From positions 1 through 27,007 of IMG/VR virus record IMGVR_UViG_3300034071_002719: a stretch of DNA of 27,007 bases; one strand, 5' to 3'. Positions within the stretch are counted from its first letter, which is position 1; every line of letters starts with the position of its first letter. The translations under genes were made by a program, and so were the position numbers. Of the stretch, positions 2,111-26,491 are shown piece by piece. The notes beneath the pieces are model-generated. The model was not told the origin of the DNA and searched no databases. It worked only from the letters and a program-made list of their open reading frames with translations. Source of the DNA: a virus.

Positions 2111-3454
2111 TCACTGTTGATCTACCGCCACGATACGCCTGCCGATCCACTCCGCAACATTCGCAACCACCCCGTTCCCGCAGCACCTGTATCTGTTGCC
2201 GTCTAGGCCATTTGGCAACAGGGGATCGCTGTCTTCCGCGGCAGAGTTCCCAATAAGAAATCCATTATCTCCGCCAATGTCCTGATTGCCAATGCCGTTC
2301 TTCCAGTCCCGAGCCTGAAGTGATCGGTGCGTCTTCGCGCCAAATGTGTCAACAGATTCAATAACTTGTGTTGCGCGAATGTCTCCAATGTCATAGACAT
2401 TCAGCGTATTGGCAATCCCGTCCTCAACCCACGTTTCTGGGGCTTCTTTTGATTGCGCACGACGAGACTTTCGCCAAGATCTCACTTCTTGCGATTGCTC
2501 CAGTTCGGCGCGATTGTCCAGCCGTCCTCCCAGCCCATCAGCCTCTCGCACTCCACTGGCGTCAGCCTGCGAACCAATGACGAGCTTGTTTCCTTGGGCA
2601 TCGTTGTCGTCTGGCCCGAATCCTCCGCCCATCCCACCCCTTGTGAGGGCTGTGGTAAGGATGAGTTGTCCTGTTTCAACGGTGCTGGTTGCTCCTTTTC
2701 TGTATCTAGCAAGGATTGCCCCAGCGACTTCAGGGCTGTCGTCAACGAAGGGGGGAGTTGCCTGCCACGACGATGCGCTCGCCTTAGAATGCCCGCAGCC
2801 GCCTTCGCACTCAAAGAGAACCTCGCTGGCGCGGTTGGTTCCAAGACTTGCGACAATGAACACTCTATTGCGTCTTTGGGGGACACCGAAGTATCTAGCG
2901 TCCAGAGTTCGCCACGAAACGCCATACCCGAGTTTGTCCACTTCAGAGATGAGCCTGAGGAAATCACGTCCTCCATTTGAAGTGAAGATCCCAGGGACGT
3001 TTTCCAACACCAACCACCGAGGTCGGTATCGTTCCACAAGGTCAAGGAAGGTAAACGCGAGGACCGAGCGCTCGCCCGTGAACCCCTTCCTGCTTCCTGC
3101 GACGCTGAGGTCTTGACAGGGGAATCCTCCTGACCAGATGTCGGCATGTTGCCAATCATCACCGCTGGGGGGCCGGCTTTCAGCGTCAACGGGTCTGCTT
3201 GGTCGTTGAACTTCGTCGGCTGCATGCTGTACAGCGTAGGAAAGCTGATGATTTCTTTCTTCTCCACGACTTGCCTCCCGTGCCGCTAGGGCAACAATAT
3301 CTCCGTGATTGTATATGTTTGGCCAGTGACGCGCCAGTACAGCGCTAGCATACGGGTCGTTTTCGCACAGGCTGATCGTCTCAATACCTGCTCGTTCAAA
3401 TCCTAGGTCAAGACCACCGACCCCGCTAAAGAATGAAGAGTGCGTGAGCCTCAT
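2111..3454 (-). CDS. dcm: DNA (cytosine-5) methyltransferase
   Basis: A 447-residue C5-cytosine methyltransferase. Motif I is FSGVGGLDLGF (residues 9-19, SAM binding), motif IV is GGFPCQDLS with catalytic Cys113, motif VI is ENVPG (151-155), motif VIII is QRRNRVF (193-199) and motif X is GNGVVANVAEWIG (426-438). It probably protects phage DNA from host restriction. Two oddities stand out. Residues about 57-105, between motifs I and IV, form an insertion absent from compact family members. And no motif IX is found in this frame: the typical block RRLTPVECERLMGWEDGWT is encoded at 2515-2571 in another frame of the same strand. A 261-codon gene is nested inside. ATG at 3454 overlaps the loader stop (ATGA). 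Confidence 0.93.
   Translation of the reverse strand: MRLTHSSFFSGVGGLDLGFERAGIETISLCENDPYASAVLARHWPNIYNHGDIVALAAREASRGEERNHQLSYAVQHAADEVQRPSRPVDAESRPPSGDDWQHADIWSGGFPCQDLSVAGSRKGFTGERSVLAFTFLDLVERYRPRWLVLENVPGIFTSNGGRDFLRLISEVDKLGYGVSWRTLDARYFGVPQRRNRVFIVASLGTNRASEVLFECEGGCGHSKASASSWQATPPFVDDSPEVAGAILARYRKGATSTVETGQLILTTALTRGGMGGGFGPDDNDAQGNKLVIGSQADASGVREADGLGGRLDNRAELEQSQEVRSWRKSRRAQSKEAPETWVEDGIANTLNVYDIGDIRATQVIESVDTFGAKTHRSLQARDWKNGIGNQDIGGDNGFLIGNSAAEDSDPLLPNGLDGNRYRCCGNGVVANVAEWIGRRIVAVDQQ
2482..3267 (-). CDS. nested gene inside dcm, other frame, same strand
   Basis: A 261-codon frame lying wholly inside the methyltransferase gene. The start is GTG at 3267, six bases after GGAGG, a better initiation site than most genes here. 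The protein is rich in Ser, Leu and Arg. It has segments I recall from phage proteins encoded across dcm homologues: PTSGQEDSPVKTSAS, SSLKWTNSGM with WTLDTSVSP, and SLSQVLE followed by FSLSAKAAAGILRRAHRRG. The last lies opposite methyltransferase motif VIII. Its C-terminus is RRLTPVECERLMGWEDGWT, normally methyltransferase motif IX. Function is unknown; a methyltransferase partner, anti-restriction protein or shadow conserved through dcm are all possible. Caution: long open frames also occur on the opposite strand here, so openness alone is weak evidence. Confidence 0.5.
   Translation of the reverse strand: MEKKEIISFPTLYSMQPTKFNDQADPLTLKAGPPAVMIGNMPTSGQEDSPVKTSASQEAGRGSRASARSSRLPSLTLWNDTDLGGWCWKTSLGSSLQMEDVISSGSSLKWTNSGMAFRGELWTLDTSVSPKDAIECSLSQVLEPTAPARFSLSAKAAAGILRRAHRRGRQLPPSLTTALKSLGQSLLDTEKEQPAPLKQDNSSLPQPSQGVGWAEDSGQTTTMPKETSSSLVRRLTPVECERLMGWEDGWTIAPNWSNRKK
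3274..3278 (-). promoter_or_regulatory. Shine-Dalgarno sequence of the nested gene
   Basis: On the minus strand GGAGG (within GGGAGG) lies six bases before GTG at 3267. It falls inside the insertion that separates motifs I and IV of the methyltransferase. A site of this quality inside another coding region is what supports the nested start. Confidence 0.55.
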
Positions 3455-20581: not shown

Positions 20582-20829
20582 ACTGGGGAGAGCTGATGGC
20601 GTCTTATTCAGACGCCTTTGGCTTCACCCCACAACAGTTTCTCCAACTGACGCTCCCTCAACTAGCTGACTTTGCGGAATTTGCAAAGAAGCGAGACGAG
20701 GAGATGAAACGTCAGAACAAGCCGCAGCCTGGCTCGTCTGGCACCGCTGGGACAAAAACGTCCCTAGAGCAAATGGTATCCCAATTCGGAACACATAAGG
20801 CAAAGGCGGAACTATTAAACAATGGCTGA
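20557..20829 (+). CDS. T part of the GT tail chaperone, made by -1 frameshift
   Basis: After slippage at 20551-20557 the ribosome continues for 90 codons to the TGA at 20827, giving a GT fusion of about 180 residues (90 from G plus 90). The added part begins SGGGWGSLNWGELMASYSDA and contains FGFTPQQFLQLTLPQLADF, the usual T-domain pattern of a helix with a Pro-rich LTL turn, then charged KKRDEEMKRQNK. An ATG at 20596 exists in this frame but has a poor context, and the coding-like sequence begins before it (GWGSLNWGEL), so frameshift expression is the better model. The end overlaps the tape measure start by eight bases. Confidence 0.85.
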   Translation, partial: SGGGWGSLNWGELMASYSDAFGFTPQQFLQLTLPQLADFAEFAKKRDEEMKRQNKPQPGSSGTAGTKTSLEQMVSQFGTHKAKAELLNNG

Positions 20830-23800
20830 GTCTGAAGTACAGCAACTAGAGTTAAGGCTTAAGGCCGCAGTAGAGGGCCTTGATAAGGTCGTTGCCACCG
20901 AGCGCCATCTTACCAATATCCTTGCGCTTTATGAAAAAATTCAGCGCGCAACAAGCCTTGCAAAGGGCCTTGGCGCTATGCCGAGGCAGCCGCTAGAGAG
21001 TCGCGGTGCAAGCGCGAGCAAGGAAGACCTGCGTAGCGGTTTCGGCTCAACAAACTACGCGGATGCTGAATATCAAAAAAATCTTCGCGACTGGAATGCA
21101 AAGCGCGCAGAAATAAACAACGCCATTAGCGAAGCAGCGAACTTTGGCAAGCAGTTCGGAGATGCATTTTCTAGCAGCAGTACTGGTAAAGAGCTTTCTA
21201 ATTTTTCAGATCAGGCAAAGCGTCTAGATCAAGACGGGGGCGCTTACTACAAAACATTTGCTGAGGCGGCAGAAAAACTAGATAAGGCGATTGACACTAG
21301 GCGTGCGTCCAAGGTGGCCGAGCTTGATGAAATTCAAAGAGATTTTGAATATGTAGGCAAGAACAAAAAGAAAGAGATTGTCCCTGGAAGCGGTGGTGCG
21401 CTCAGGCGCGCAGAGCAGGAAGCGGGAAGGGCAGAGGCAGACCTTGCTGCCGCAAGACAACGGCTTTCATCAACAGAAGCAGAATCTTCGCAAAAAAAGA
21501 CTAAGGCCGTAAAAGAAGAAACGAAAGCGGTTAAAGACGCCGCCGACCTTGGGACCGCCGCGTCAAAGAAAATTGCTCAGACCGTCAAGTCCCCAGAAGT
21601 AGCTAGGGCTAAGCAGAGGCAGGTTGAGGCGGTTGCACAAGAGGCTGCTGCCGCACAGGACCTCACCCCAACGCGATCTAGGAAGGCTGGTCCATTCAGC
21701 GAGGCGGAAAAGGCGGCGCAGGCCCAGCGTCTTGCGGTACAGGAAGCCGAGTACCAACAGATTCGTCAGGCTCAAGCCCAGCGCCAAGCGCTGCTTGGTC
21801 AACTTGGCTCAAGCCTGCGCGGCGCTCTTGGGACGGCCGCTCAAAGCCCATTCGGACGAGCGTATGGTCCGACAATCCGAGAGCTTCGCGGCTCGCAGCT
21901 TCCCCTTGCCGACCGAAGACTTACTGGCGCTGGCGCACCAATGGGTGCAGTCAACACACAAGCCCTACAGGCTGCATTCTCATCGTTAGCATCTGCTGCA
22001 GATAGAGCCGCGGCAAACCTATCTCGCATCGCCGCAGCATCAGTTGGCAGCGGGGGAGGTGGCGGTGGTGGTGGTGGTGGTGGTGTGGCTATGCCAGCTG
22101 TCAGCGCAACAGAGGCAGGACTTGCTCGTTCTGTTATTGCGGAGATGCTTGCCTTCCCAAAGGCATGGTCGCAAGTTCACGGTGCAATGCGATTCAACGA
22201 GGCGCAGTTCAATAAAGACTACGACCTTGGCAAGCAGCTTGAGGCAAGGAATCAGAAGGCAACCGCCGCATATAACCGAGCAATTGCCAGTACGGGCAAT
22301 CTTTGGACAAATGCAAGTCAGGGCGCGCGTGGATTTAGAAATGAACAAGATGGAATTCTTGGTCAGGTCAAAAATGTCATTGGCCTTGCTGCTGGCTATC
22401 AAGTACTTCAGGGGATAGCAACTGAGCTTGGTCAAGTCTTTGGGCATCTGAAGGGCGGAATCATCGGCTATAACGCGATGATTGAGCAGGCAACGGTCGG
22501 GTTTACAACGCTCTTCCGTAACCAATACGACCAAGTTATGCAATCTACCACGGCATTCAATGCGCAAAAGGATGCTATTGACTACATCCAAATGGGCTAT
22601 AGCAGCGCAGGTGAAGCCGCAGAGGCCATGATCGGTACGATCAAGGAATTTGCAAACATTACACCGTTCCGATTCCCAGAGCTTCAGGACTCCGCACTTA
22701 GGATGCGCGCATTCGGCTTCGGGATGCAAGAAATTTTGAAGTCAACAAAGAATGCTGAAACTGGGGCACTAGAGTTTTCTGGTGCAGTGGTATCGGTAGG
22801 TAACGCAGTCTCGGCTCTTGGCGGTGGGGCCGATGCGTTCCGACGAATCACATACGCACTCGGCCAAATGAAGCAAGCTGGTCGTGTCTATCAAAACGAC
22901 ATGATGCAGCTGGCTAACGCGGGTATTGGTGGATACAAGTACATTGCAAACGCACTGCGCAGAGAAATTACAAAAGACAACACTGGTAAGCGCGAGGATG
23001 TTAAAGAAGGCTACGCAAAGCTATACGACGAACTAAGCGGAAACGCTATTGAAACGGTTCGCCGGCTTACGACTAACGGCCAGATCTCTGGAGAGGCCGC
23101 CGCCAGGGCAATCATGGACGGAATGAACGAAGAGTTTAAGGGCGGAATGGAGGACCAAAGCAAAACGTTTATTGGTGCCTTGAGCACCGTTGCTGACGTT
23201 TCACAGAGCCTTGTCGCCACCATGTTTGAGCCGATGTTCAAGTCAGTTAGCGACATAACGTATCAGTTTGGACAGTTCCTCCAGACAGACGAGGCCAAGG
23301 CGTTTGCGGCCGAGATGAAAAACGTTATTACAGGAATAAAGGACGCATTTGGTGGGGTTGGGGACACCGTTTCCAGAATTGTAATGGGTGTGTTTAGCGA
23401 TCTTTCCAGCGCAATAGACAAGGCTTCTGGGGCAACGGCTGGATTTGGCAGCGCTGCTGGCGCCGTATTTACATACTTCAAAAATGGAATAGGGGCTATC
23501 GGCGATGCTCTATCTAATACATACGTTCGCCAGATAGCACTTGCCGCCGCGGCAACAAAAACTGTATTTGCCTTCCAGGCCTCCAACCCGTTCCTCTCTC
23601 AGGTAATGCTGCTAATCGCGGCTATTGGGTTAATGAAAACAGCATATGATCAAAATATTGGAAACGTACAGCAAAACTTTGACAAGCTTTACACGTCGGT
23701 TCAGCCCCTTGTAAAGATTATTCAGCAGGACTTGCTACCTGCGCTTGGTGAGTTTGCCGCAATATTTGGTCTAATTGTAGTTGACACTTTGATTGTCGCA

Positions 23801-26491
23801 TTCAAGGCTCTTGAGCCAGCAATAACAGTCATTGTTCGTGCGTTTGCAGAGTTGATAAAAGCGATTGCATCGCTCAAGGCGCCAGTAGCAATTGCAGCTA
23901 TTGCACTAGCAAGCATGTTTGTTGGTAGCAAGATTGTTTCTGGGTTCAGCGCAATTTCCCGAAAGATTACAGAGTTGCTCTTTAAGTACGACCAGCTTGC
24001 AAAGAAGGCTCGAGTTGCCGCGGCCGCCATGGCGGCACCGCCTGGGTACACGGCTGTTGGGGTTGGAAAGTACCGAATGGTCACAGACCCAACTACTGGG
24101 AAGAAGACCAGAGACTATTACCTAACGGGTGAGAGCGAGCTTGTAAAAAAGAATCGCGGCCAGATCGCGATTCAAAACAATGAACCAACGTCCCGCGTTT
24201 TCCCAGGTGCGATGGCGCTTGCGGGAGGACTTCTAAGAAATGTCCCTGGCGCCGTGGGCGGCGGGCTGCTTGCAACTGGGATGCTTGCAGAAATGGGCGG
24301 TGGGGCAAGTAACGAAATAACTTCTCTTGTTAACCAGGTTGGTACAGCGCTCTTTGGTTTTTCAATGCTTCAAAACATTTTCCCTGTTGGAAGTATGGAG
24401 ATTATTAAAAAAGGGCTAAAGGACTTTGGCGATGTACTTAGCGGCAGCATCTCTAAACTGCCTTTTGACAAAATTGCAAATGGTTTTAAGGCGATATATA
24501 ACTCACTTGGGGAACTTGGATACAAGGCTGGCGGGGCTATTGCTGGCAAACTCGGCGCAAGCGCGGCCGCCTCAGCGGTGACTGCTCAGGTTGTGGCGGC
24601 AATTGTTGCCGTTGGCGGCGTTGCAATGATCGTTGCGCTGGCAGTTGCGGCGGCAGCACTGTTCCTAAAAGATCTTCTACCGCCAGAAGGGACTGGTGCG
24701 CCAAGAAAAGGAACTGCGTCATATAACTATCTAACTGGCACATATAACACTGGCGATACATCCGTTCCATACGGGGCTCGCGCACAGGGGGCGGGTATTG
24801 GCCAGCGTAAAGCCCCACGCACAGAAGTCACAAATATGCCGGGCTTTGTTGAATTCCGTGAAGGCGAGCGGAATATGGGCGCTATTGCTGACGAGACGGA
24901 AAGAACCACTAAGGGCGTTGATGCGGTTAACAAGGAGTATGGTCTGCTTATTAACCAGCAGAACAAGGCAATTGGGGGTCAAGAGCTTCTTAACCTAAAG
25001 CTTCAGCGAGCACGCGAAGCCCTTGGAAATGCTACTGAAAAATTCCAGCAGCTTGCAACTGCTTCTCTTGAGCGACTCCTCAATCCAGAAACCCGCGTAA
25101 ATCCATATACGGGGCTCCAAGAGGCTGGGATGTCGGCCGAAGAGTTGCTTGAGATTGAGCAAGAAATGTCAATGGTTGAGTTTACAAACGCTGACGGTCT
25201 TGCTCGCTCGTTTGAGGAGTATAGGGATCTTCTGGTCGCCATCAAGCCGCTTTCAGAGGGCGACCTGACCAATGGCAGGCTTAACCTGAAGGCGGTAAAC
25301 GAACGCCTTAAGATTGAGAAAGAGCGACGCAAAGAAAAAGAGCGAATAAAGGCGCTTGCAGAGGCAGAGTACGACCTCGGCCTTGCTGTGCTTAAGCAGT
25401 ACGACGAATCTGTTAACCCTCTTGAAAGAGCCGTTTCCCTGCGAAACGCGCAGATGAAATACGAAAAAGACACTCAAGACCTGCAAATGCGCGGAATTGA
25501 GAACATGGTTGAGCAGGTGTCTTCTTCTGGGATGTGGACTCAAGCAAACCGAGCAACAAAGAAGCGACTTGAGGATCTTCGTAAGGGCCAAGAGCTTGTC
25601 CTCAATGAAATGCGTGACATGTTTGAAAAATACAATCAGGATGTTGCGTTTATCCTTGCAAACCCAAATCTTTCTGCTGCTGCAAAAGCAGAGAAAATAA
25701 ACGAACTCTTTGCAACCCTACGAACTCGTCTTGGAGAGCAATTTGGGGTTACTGAAAAAGTTCTTACAGATCAACAGGCAATTTTTAACAGCCAGATCGG
25801 CGCTGTTATTGCAGCCGCAAATGCAGCGGGTCAAGTAATACCGGAAATTACTTGGACTCAAACACTCCTTGGGAACGTTAAGGCTGGGCTAGACGGACTT
25901 ATTACAATGATGGAGAGCAAGGCAAAAAGAATTGCTGATTTGATTGCCGCCATCAAGTCAGCTGCAAGCCAGGATACCTCTGCGCCAGCTGGAGATACCG
26001 CTAAGTCAGTAGCTGCAAAGCTAGCAAAGGTTAATTCGCTTCTTCTTTCAAGTGGAAGGATTGGAGAACAAGAGCGAGCTGGATACACTAGGGGTATCAA
26101 CCAACTCAGACAAATGACTGACCTTGATGCAATTAGGATTCAGTACAACAAACTTTACGGTCAGCTTGTACGCGCTGGCGCAACTGATGCAGATTTTCAG
26201 GTTGCTGGGTTTCACCGCGGCGGCGTGATGCCAGCAAACCGTTTTGCGCTTGTTGGCGAGAAAGGCCCAGAGTTGATTGTCCCAGAGAGTCGCGGGCTTG
26301 TGCTGAACAACGGAATCACCAGCCGCATTCTGGGCATGCTTGGGTCGGGTGGAGCAGCGTCAACGTCTAGCAATGTTACAATTAACGTCAACAACCCTGT
26401 TATCAGGAACGAAAACGACATTAGGAAGCTTGCTCAAGAAATTTCTAGGGTTCAGGCAAGCCAGTTTAGGACTGAGGGCGGGAGGCTCTAA
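20822..26491 (+). CDS. tail tape measure protein
   Basis: An 1889-residue tape measure, the longest gene here. Residues 1-340 are charged and Ala-rich coiled coil (EAEYQQIRQAQAQRQALLGQ). A Gly run follows at about 412-422. About 540-800 is the conserved tape-measure region (FANITPFRFPELQDSALRMR; ALGQMKQAGRVYQNDMMQLA). Hydrophobic segments, probably membrane-interacting, are near 925-945, 980-1005, 1020-1040 and 1250-1285. The C-terminus has VGEKGPELIVPESRG (about 1812-1826), a common tape-measure end motif. No peptidase or lysozyme motif was seen. At about 1.5 angstrom per residue the tail should be near 280 nm. ATG 20822 overlaps the T frame; TAA shares its A with the next start. Confidence 0.95.
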   Translation: MAESEVQQLELRLKAAVEGLDKVVATERHLTNILALYEKIQRATSLAKGLGAMPRQPLESRGASASKEDLRSGFGSTNYADAEYQKNLRDWNAKRAEINNAISEAANFGKQFGDAFSSSSTGKELSNFSDQAKRLDQDGGAYYKTFAEAAEKLDKAIDTRRASKVAELDEIQRDFEYVGKNKKKEIVPGSGGALRRAEQEAGRAEADLAAARQRLSSTEAESSQKKTKAVKEETKAVKDAADLGTAASKKIAQTVKSPEVARAKQRQVEAVAQEAAAAQDLTPTRSRKAGPFSEAEKAAQAQRLAVQEAEYQQIRQAQAQRQALLGQLGSSLRGALGTAAQSPFGRAYGPTIRELRGSQLPLADRRLTGAGAPMGAVNTQALQAAFSSLASAADRAAANLSRIAAASVGSGGGGGGGGGGGVAMPAVSATEAGLARSVIAEMLAFPKAWSQVHGAMRFNEAQFNKDYDLGKQLEARNQKATAAYNRAIASTGNLWTNASQGARGFRNEQDGILGQVKNVIGLAAGYQVLQGIATELGQVFGHLKGGIIGYNAMIEQATVGFTTLFRNQYDQVMQSTTAFNAQKDAIDYIQMGYSSAGEAAEAMIGTIKEFANITPFRFPELQDSALRMRAFGFGMQEILKSTKNAETGALEFSGAVVSVGNAVSALGGGADAFRRITYALGQMKQAGRVYQNDMMQLANAGIGGYKYIANALRREITKDNTGKREDVKEGYAKLYDELSGNAIETVRRLTTNGQISGEAAARAIMDGMNEEFKGGMEDQSKTFIGALSTVADVSQSLVATMFEPMFKSVSDITYQFGQFLQTDEAKAFAAEMKNVITGIKDAFGGVGDTVSRIVMGVFSDLSSAIDKASGATAGFGSAAGAVFTYFKNGIGAIGDALSNTYVRQIALAAAATKTVFAFQASNPFLSQVMLLIAAIGLMKTAYDQNIGNVQQNFDKLYTSVQPLVKIIQQDLLPALGEFAAIFGLIVVDTLIVAFKALEPAITVIVRAFAELIKAIASLKAPVAIAAIALASMFVGSKIVSGFSAISRKITELLFKYDQLAKKARVAAAAMAAPPGYTAVGVGKYRMVTDPTTGKKTRDYYLTGESELVKKNRGQIAIQNNEPTSRVFPGAMALAGGLLRNVPGAVGGGLLATGMLAEMGGGASNEITSLVNQVGTALFGFSMLQNIFPVGSMEIIKKGLKDFGDVLSGSISKLPFDKIANGFKAIYNSLGELGYKAGGAIAGKLGASAAASAVTAQVVAAIVAVGGVAMIVALAVAAAALFLKDLLPPEGTGAPRKGTASYNYLTGTYNTGDTSVPYGARAQGAGIGQRKAPRTEVTNMPGFVEFREGERNMGAIADETERTTKGVDAVNKEYGLLINQQNKAIGGQELLNLKLQRAREALGNATEKFQQLATASLERLLNPETRVNPYTGLQEAGMSAEELLEIEQEMSMVEFTNADGLARSFEEYRDLLVAIKPLSEGDLTNGRLNLKAVNERLKIEKERRKEKERIKALAEAEYDLGLAVLKQYDESVNPLERAVSLRNAQMKYEKDTQDLQMRGIENMVEQVSSSGMWTQANRATKKRLEDLRKGQELVLNEMRDMFEKYNQDVAFILANPNLSAAAKAEKINELFATLRTRLGEQFGVTEKVLTDQQAIFNSQIGAVIAAANAAGQVIPEITWTQTLLGNVKAGLDGLITMMESKAKRIADLIAAIKSAASQDTSAPAGDTAKSVAAKLAKVNSLLLSSGRIGEQERAGYTRGINQLRQMTDLDAIRIQYNKLYGQLVRAGATDADFQVAGFHRGGVMPANRFALVGEKGPELIVPESRGLVLNNGITSRILGMLGSGGAASTSSNVTINVNNPVIRNENDIRKLAQEISRVQASQFRTEGGRL
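22052..22085 (+). repeat. GGT-rich simple repeat coding for poly-glycine
   Basis: An imperfect (GGN/GGT) run within the tape measure gene encoding 11 glycines. It joins the N-terminal coiled-coil part to the rest and acts as a flexible hinge. Gain or loss of units keeps the frame. Confidence 0.85.

Follow-up and report, generated by a model that had tools for sequence, protein, structure and literature searches.

A second gene nested in the +1 frame of a phage cytosine methyltransferase gene: a probable two-polypeptide enzyme of the M.EcoHK31I type

Split C5-methyltransferases and the phage locus

M.EcoHK31I is an E. coli enzyme of the alpha/beta C5-methyltransferase type with the specificity YGGCCR, and in 1995 Lee, Kam and Shaw are said to have described its polypeptides as being of 309 and 176 aa with beta encoded in an alternative frame. 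The large polypeptide of M.EcoHK31I carries motifs I-VIII, the TRD, and motif X and the small polypeptide carries only motif IX (PMC3404938), and the title of the EcoHK31I paper that is cited there states that the enzyme requires two proteins. In M.AquI the small subunit carries the distal variable region, motif IX, and motif X, and fragment complementation of M.SssI, M.HhaI, and M.BspRI has shown that inactive pieces assemble into an active enzyme (PMC3404938). Our literature searches for a gene overlapping dcm in phages found nothing relevant.

The DNA analyzed here, referred to as the window, is a virus record of 27,007 bases that carries a dcm gene of 447 codons and, nested within it and open in its +1 frame, a reading frame of 261 codons that starts with GTG at codon 63 of dcm (Table 1). 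A preliminary description had reported this frame and its GTG six bases 3' of GGAGG and had placed the start inside an insertion in dcm, and both were borne out, the insertion being a stretch that is missing in most relatives. The dcm frame of the window has motifs I-VIII and X and no motif IX; the profile of motif IX matched the +1 frame alone, with 62.3 bits, at the C-terminal end of the nested protein. The helical hairpin of the nested frame overlaps the end of motif VIII of dcm and the segment that follows it. The neighboring genes matched thioredoxin, SSB, a RusA-like resolvase, a DnaC-like loader, an exonuclease, and structural genes, two were without a match, and no restriction endonuclease linked to dcm was recognized among the neighbor genes searched. 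Elsewhere in the window, positions 20822-26491 hold a frame of 1,889 codons which is overlapped by several long frames on both strands.

Table 1. Features of the overlapping genes in the window
Feature	Position	Strand	Basis
dcm, alpha subunit, 447 aa (proposed)	2111..3454	-	Pfam PF00145, E=3e-46
Nested gene, beta subunit, 261 aa (proposed)	2482..3267	-	+1 frame, purifying selection, EcoHK31I-like homology
Shine-Dalgarno GGAGG of nested gene	3274..3278	-	6-base spacer to GTG 3267
dcm insertion, residues about 57-105, with nested start and N-terminal extension	3140..3286	-	missing in most relatives (alignment)
Nested residues 7-37, ISFPTLYSMQPTKFNDQADPLTLKAGPPAVM	3157..3249	-	profile match; nested-frame dNN/dNS 0.26
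Nested residues 138-192, helical hairpin SLSQVLE...LSAKAAAGILRRAHRRGRQLP	2692..2856	-	pLDDT; nested-frame dNN/dNS 0.38
Motif IX in nested frame, RRLTPVECERLMGWEDGWT	2515..2571	-	62-bit profile match; nested-frame dNN/dNS 0.12
dcm motifs I-VIII, catalytic large domain	2843..3454	-	Pfam and AF2
dcm motif X, NRYRCCGNGVVANVAEWIGRR	2135..2203	-	45.9-bit X profile match in dcm frame

The window thus resembles M.EcoHK31I in having motifs I-VIII and X on alpha and motif IX on the small polypeptide, and it resembles the EcoHK31I-like locus of E. coli described below in that the small protein is encoded within the large gene, in its +1 frame. It differs from M.EcoHK31I in being phage-borne and in having no recognized restriction endonuclease nearby, although a linked endonuclease is a trait of the EcoHK31I restriction-modification system and not of the enzyme architecture, and its beta is 261 aa compared to 176 aa in the EcoHK31I-like beta, with an extra N-terminal segment. 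With M.AquI it shares the division of a C5-methyltransferase over two polypeptides, but in the window motif X is in the large subunit, that is, in the dcm frame. The fragments of M.SssI, M.HhaI, and M.BspRI were one-frame laboratory constructs whereas the genes in the window are natural and overlapping.

A chromosomal locus (L294) has a dcm of 302 aa and a nested frame of 182 aa with motifs IX and X split as in M.EcoHK31I, and by way of this locus an EcoHK31I-like gene was found in 106 of 5,426 complete E. coli genomes. In three E. coli records (L298-L300) dcm is 309 aa long and the +1 frame, counted from its first ATG, is 176 aa long and contains the hairpin and motif IX; the annotation of these records gives the large subunit only and omits the small one, and in two of the three the next gene is annotated as a NotI-family restriction endonuclease. 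We match this locus to EcoHK31I by its architecture, its NotI-family neighbor, and the lengths of 309 and 176 aa. The nested protein of the window matched the E. coli beta at 37% over 157 aa in BLASTP (E=1e-27) and with a probability of 99.7 in hhalign.

The nested frame in related loci

When the nested protein was used as the query 26 viral loci were matched at 29-96% identity, and a nested profile extended this to at least 585 stretches of viral DNA and 165 of bacterial genomes. Every one of the 166 distinct related loci had the conserved nested core, written SLSxVLE...LSxKAcxGILRRAxxRGKxLP, in the +1 frame of dcm. These 166 loci had been chosen by the nested motif and therefore a second set was chosen by dcm alone; all 77 loci in it with a recognizable motif VIII carried the nested core, always in the +1 frame, this set being the closest 80 relatives and not representative of all C5-methyltransferases. 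The phrase that the preliminary description had quoted from phage proteins is real, since SLSxVLE...LSxKAxxGILRRAxxRGxxLP is the +1 frame core in hundreds of phage loci. The dcm gene of E. coli K-12 has 14 stops in the +1 frame and no nested core. Among the loci that were inspected one by one, no nested homologue without dcm was seen.

The core was also found in dmt of phage P1, in mycobacteriophages, and in one Caulobacter phage. In P1 dmt (L027, 2716-3207) the +1 frame with the core is open for 163 codons, is 50% identical over 67 aa, and is unannotated. P1 Dmt and many other phage orphan C5-methyltransferases are like the window in having an unannotated +1 frame core but unlike it in that the main frame contains both motifs IX and X and the nested frame stops after the hairpin.

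Constraint on the nested frame and its initiation

One explanation for the nested frame is that it is an untranslated by-product of the codon use and conservation of dcm. The window sequence by itself fits this explanation, as its +1 frame remained open in 49% of synonymous shuffles of dcm, openness that is not striking, and as opposite-strand frames are open in it as well. Across 162 loci, however, the +1 frame was open in 98% compared to 20% expected from synonymous shuffling of dcm, whereas the +2 frame and the three opposite-strand frames were open in 0.6%, 14%, 11%, and 4%, respectively, which is about chance level. Because only the +1 frame exceeds chance openness, the opposite-strand frames, about which the preliminary description had cautioned, are incidental and were ruled out as genes, and the nested sense frame is not incidental.

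In a +1 overlap the third positions of dcm codons are the second positions of nested codons. Over the nested core the third-position entropy of dcm was 0.54 bits compared to about 1.7 bits, most of the region upstream being at 1.4-1.8 bits, and the first-position entropy was up to 1.57 bits. Overlap-aware rates, in which changes are counted by their effect in both frames and which the preliminary description had suggested as a check, showed that the dcm-synonymous divergence drops along the gene from 1.68 to 0.26. The nested-frame dNN/dNS fell from 0.91 in control dcm to 0.31 (0.21-0.43) over the core and, in the clade of the window, from 1.00 in the control to 0.39 over the core, the pairs compared being related by descent and not independent, which makes the intervals indicative. 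The constraint on the core persisted when only loci with motif IX in dcm were used. By module, the nested-frame dNN/dNS in the clade was 0.26 in the extension, 0.38 in the hairpin, and 0.12 in motif IX, and between the extension and the hairpin it was 0.92 and 0.58, which indicates little selection there and dominance of the dcm frame. Over nested residues 6-38 it is the dcm frame that is weakly constrained. Both frames are under purifying selection. A chance frame is ruled out by the entropy reversal, the overlap-aware dNN/dNS, and the +1 openness across loci. Against an untranslated by-product stand the dual-frame selection, with nested-frame dNN/dNS of 0.12-0.39 compared to 0.9-1.0 in control dcm, the reversal of third-position conservation, the positioned starts with their ribosome-binding sites, and the conservation of motif IX in the nested frame only, and we consider it extremely improbable.

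A Shine-Dalgarno match of at least 5 bases preceded the nested start in 90 of the 166 loci, the counts for the other two frames being 31 and 6, and about half of the nested starts with such a match cluster 111-114 codons before the core motif. Conservation of GGAGG and GTG, proposed in the preliminary description as a check, was found in part: GGAGG is kept in a relative (L002) where ATG replaces GTG, but several extension-bearing relatives have no clear Shine-Dalgarno before the nested start, nor does the EcoHK31I-like E. coli locus. The idea that the insertion exists to house initiation did not hold, as clade members without the insertion have their nested start at about 113 codons ahead of the core motif, in some cases with a strong ribosome-binding site.

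Another way in which the +1 frame could be read is programmed ribosomal frameshifting from dcm, which would give a dcm-nested fusion. Two loci (L068 and L143) would fit this, as in them dcm stops soon after motif VIII and the nested frame continues through motifs IX and X, although the two could also represent a split of the M.AquI type with an extensive overlap or the result of a sequencing frameshift. What makes frameshifting very unlikely is that the conserved extension is encoded ahead of dcm motifs IV-VIII, where a shift after motif VIII would miss it, that a single fused chain would lack motif X, that the nested frame of L294 is open for only 12 bases upstream of a GTG that has an AAAGGAG site, and that the first codon of the nested frame in extension-bearing relatives switches between ATG and GTG.

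Motif IX, the probable recognition segment, and the proposed enzyme

Motif IX was in the nested frame and motif X in dcm in 27 distinct loci, both motifs were in dcm in 111 loci, and both were in another frame in 13, the rest being incomplete or unclear. The 27 loci form one clade (SH-aLRT 99) of a single origin, and a single clade for all the enzymes with motif IX in the nested frame is not rejected by the tree (p-AU 0.72). No credible match to motif IX was found in the dcm frame near the gene in any member of the clade. In three loci (L114, L145, and L170) motifs IX and X are in the +2 frame relative to dcm, which may reflect separate genes, introns, or errors of assembly.

In 15 clade members the N terminus of the nested protein has the segment ISFPxxYSMQPTKFNDxADPLTxxAGPPAV. 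In clade members without the N-terminal extension this segment instead follows motif VIII in the dcm frame, at 67-72 bits in a profile search in four of them (L012, L046, L047, and L048) and weakly in three more. The segment was in one frame or the other and no locus had both. It is probably a target-recognition segment, an assignment made because it is placed between motifs VIII and X, and the insertion would encode it as the nested N-terminal extension.

The AF2 model of dcm was confident over residues 1-216 and 417-446, that is, the catalytic core and motif X, and its best PDB matches were M.HhaI, M.HaeIII, and DNMT1/MET1. The AF2 model of the nested protein was mostly disordered and was confident for the hairpin and motif IX only, with a mean pLDDT above 90 over residues 151-180, and a Foldseek search with it found nothing below E=0.001.

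The nested protein could also be a phage factor in its own right, with an anti-restriction or regulatory function for instance, that only overlaps dcm and is merely IX-like. This would agree with most of the loci, where dcm is complete and the nested frame is without motif IX and yet the nested core is conserved. It is less easily reconciled with the lack of a motif IX of its own in the dcm of the window's clade, with the occurrence of the recognition segment in one frame or the other, and with the requirement for two proteins in the title of the EcoHK31I paper (via PMC3404938), and we regard it as very unlikely.

The reading that we prefer, and that we think very probable from comparison of the sequences, is that the locus encodes an overlapping alpha/beta C5-methyltransferase of two polypeptides, of the M.EcoHK31I type. 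Frame 0 would give alpha, made up of the catalytic large domain (motifs I-VIII) together with motif X and some of the target-recognition region. The ribosome would enter at the internal GGAGG/GTG and read the +1 frame to give beta, in which the probable target-recognition segment at the N terminus would be followed by linkers, the helical hairpin, and, as the C-terminal element, motif IX. Beta would then bind alpha and complete its small domain, so that neither subunit would be expected to be fully active alone. Translation of beta in the phage of the window, its binding to alpha, and the activity are what we infer. There is strong support for the main point of the earlier proposal, namely that the methyltransferase is assisted by a second protein overprinted on its gene. 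The likely role of the enzyme would be to shield phage DNA from host restriction, because no restriction-system endonuclease was recognized among the neighbors searched.

What is new is the breadth, in that the unannotated +1 frame is also present in P1 dmt and in many methyltransferases of phages whose motif IX is in the dcm frame. We put at about even chances the wider proposal that most phage orphan C5-methyltransferases of this family, P1 Dmt included, are two-gene enzymes whose unannotated +1 beta is made even where dcm is complete, and that evolution can shift motif IX and pieces for recognition from one overlapping frame to the other. Our results suggest that the split enzyme described in a single restriction-modification system of E. 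coli belongs, as one branch, to a phage family that is widespread and whose overlapping gene is omitted by annotation pipelines, and those who clone or annotate dcm by itself from these phages may obtain half of the enzyme. The apparent swap of the recognition segment and motif IX between the frames makes overprinting and enzyme splitting directly testable, and P1 dmt is the obvious laboratory case. In the mycobacteriophages Schatzie (L276, 1348-2871) and Thibault (L277, 1344-3145) a gene for an HNH endonuclease splits both dcm and the nested frame; the Schatzie record mentions an intron, and THIBAULT_104, annotated as a hypothetical protein, is in phase with the match to the nested frame.
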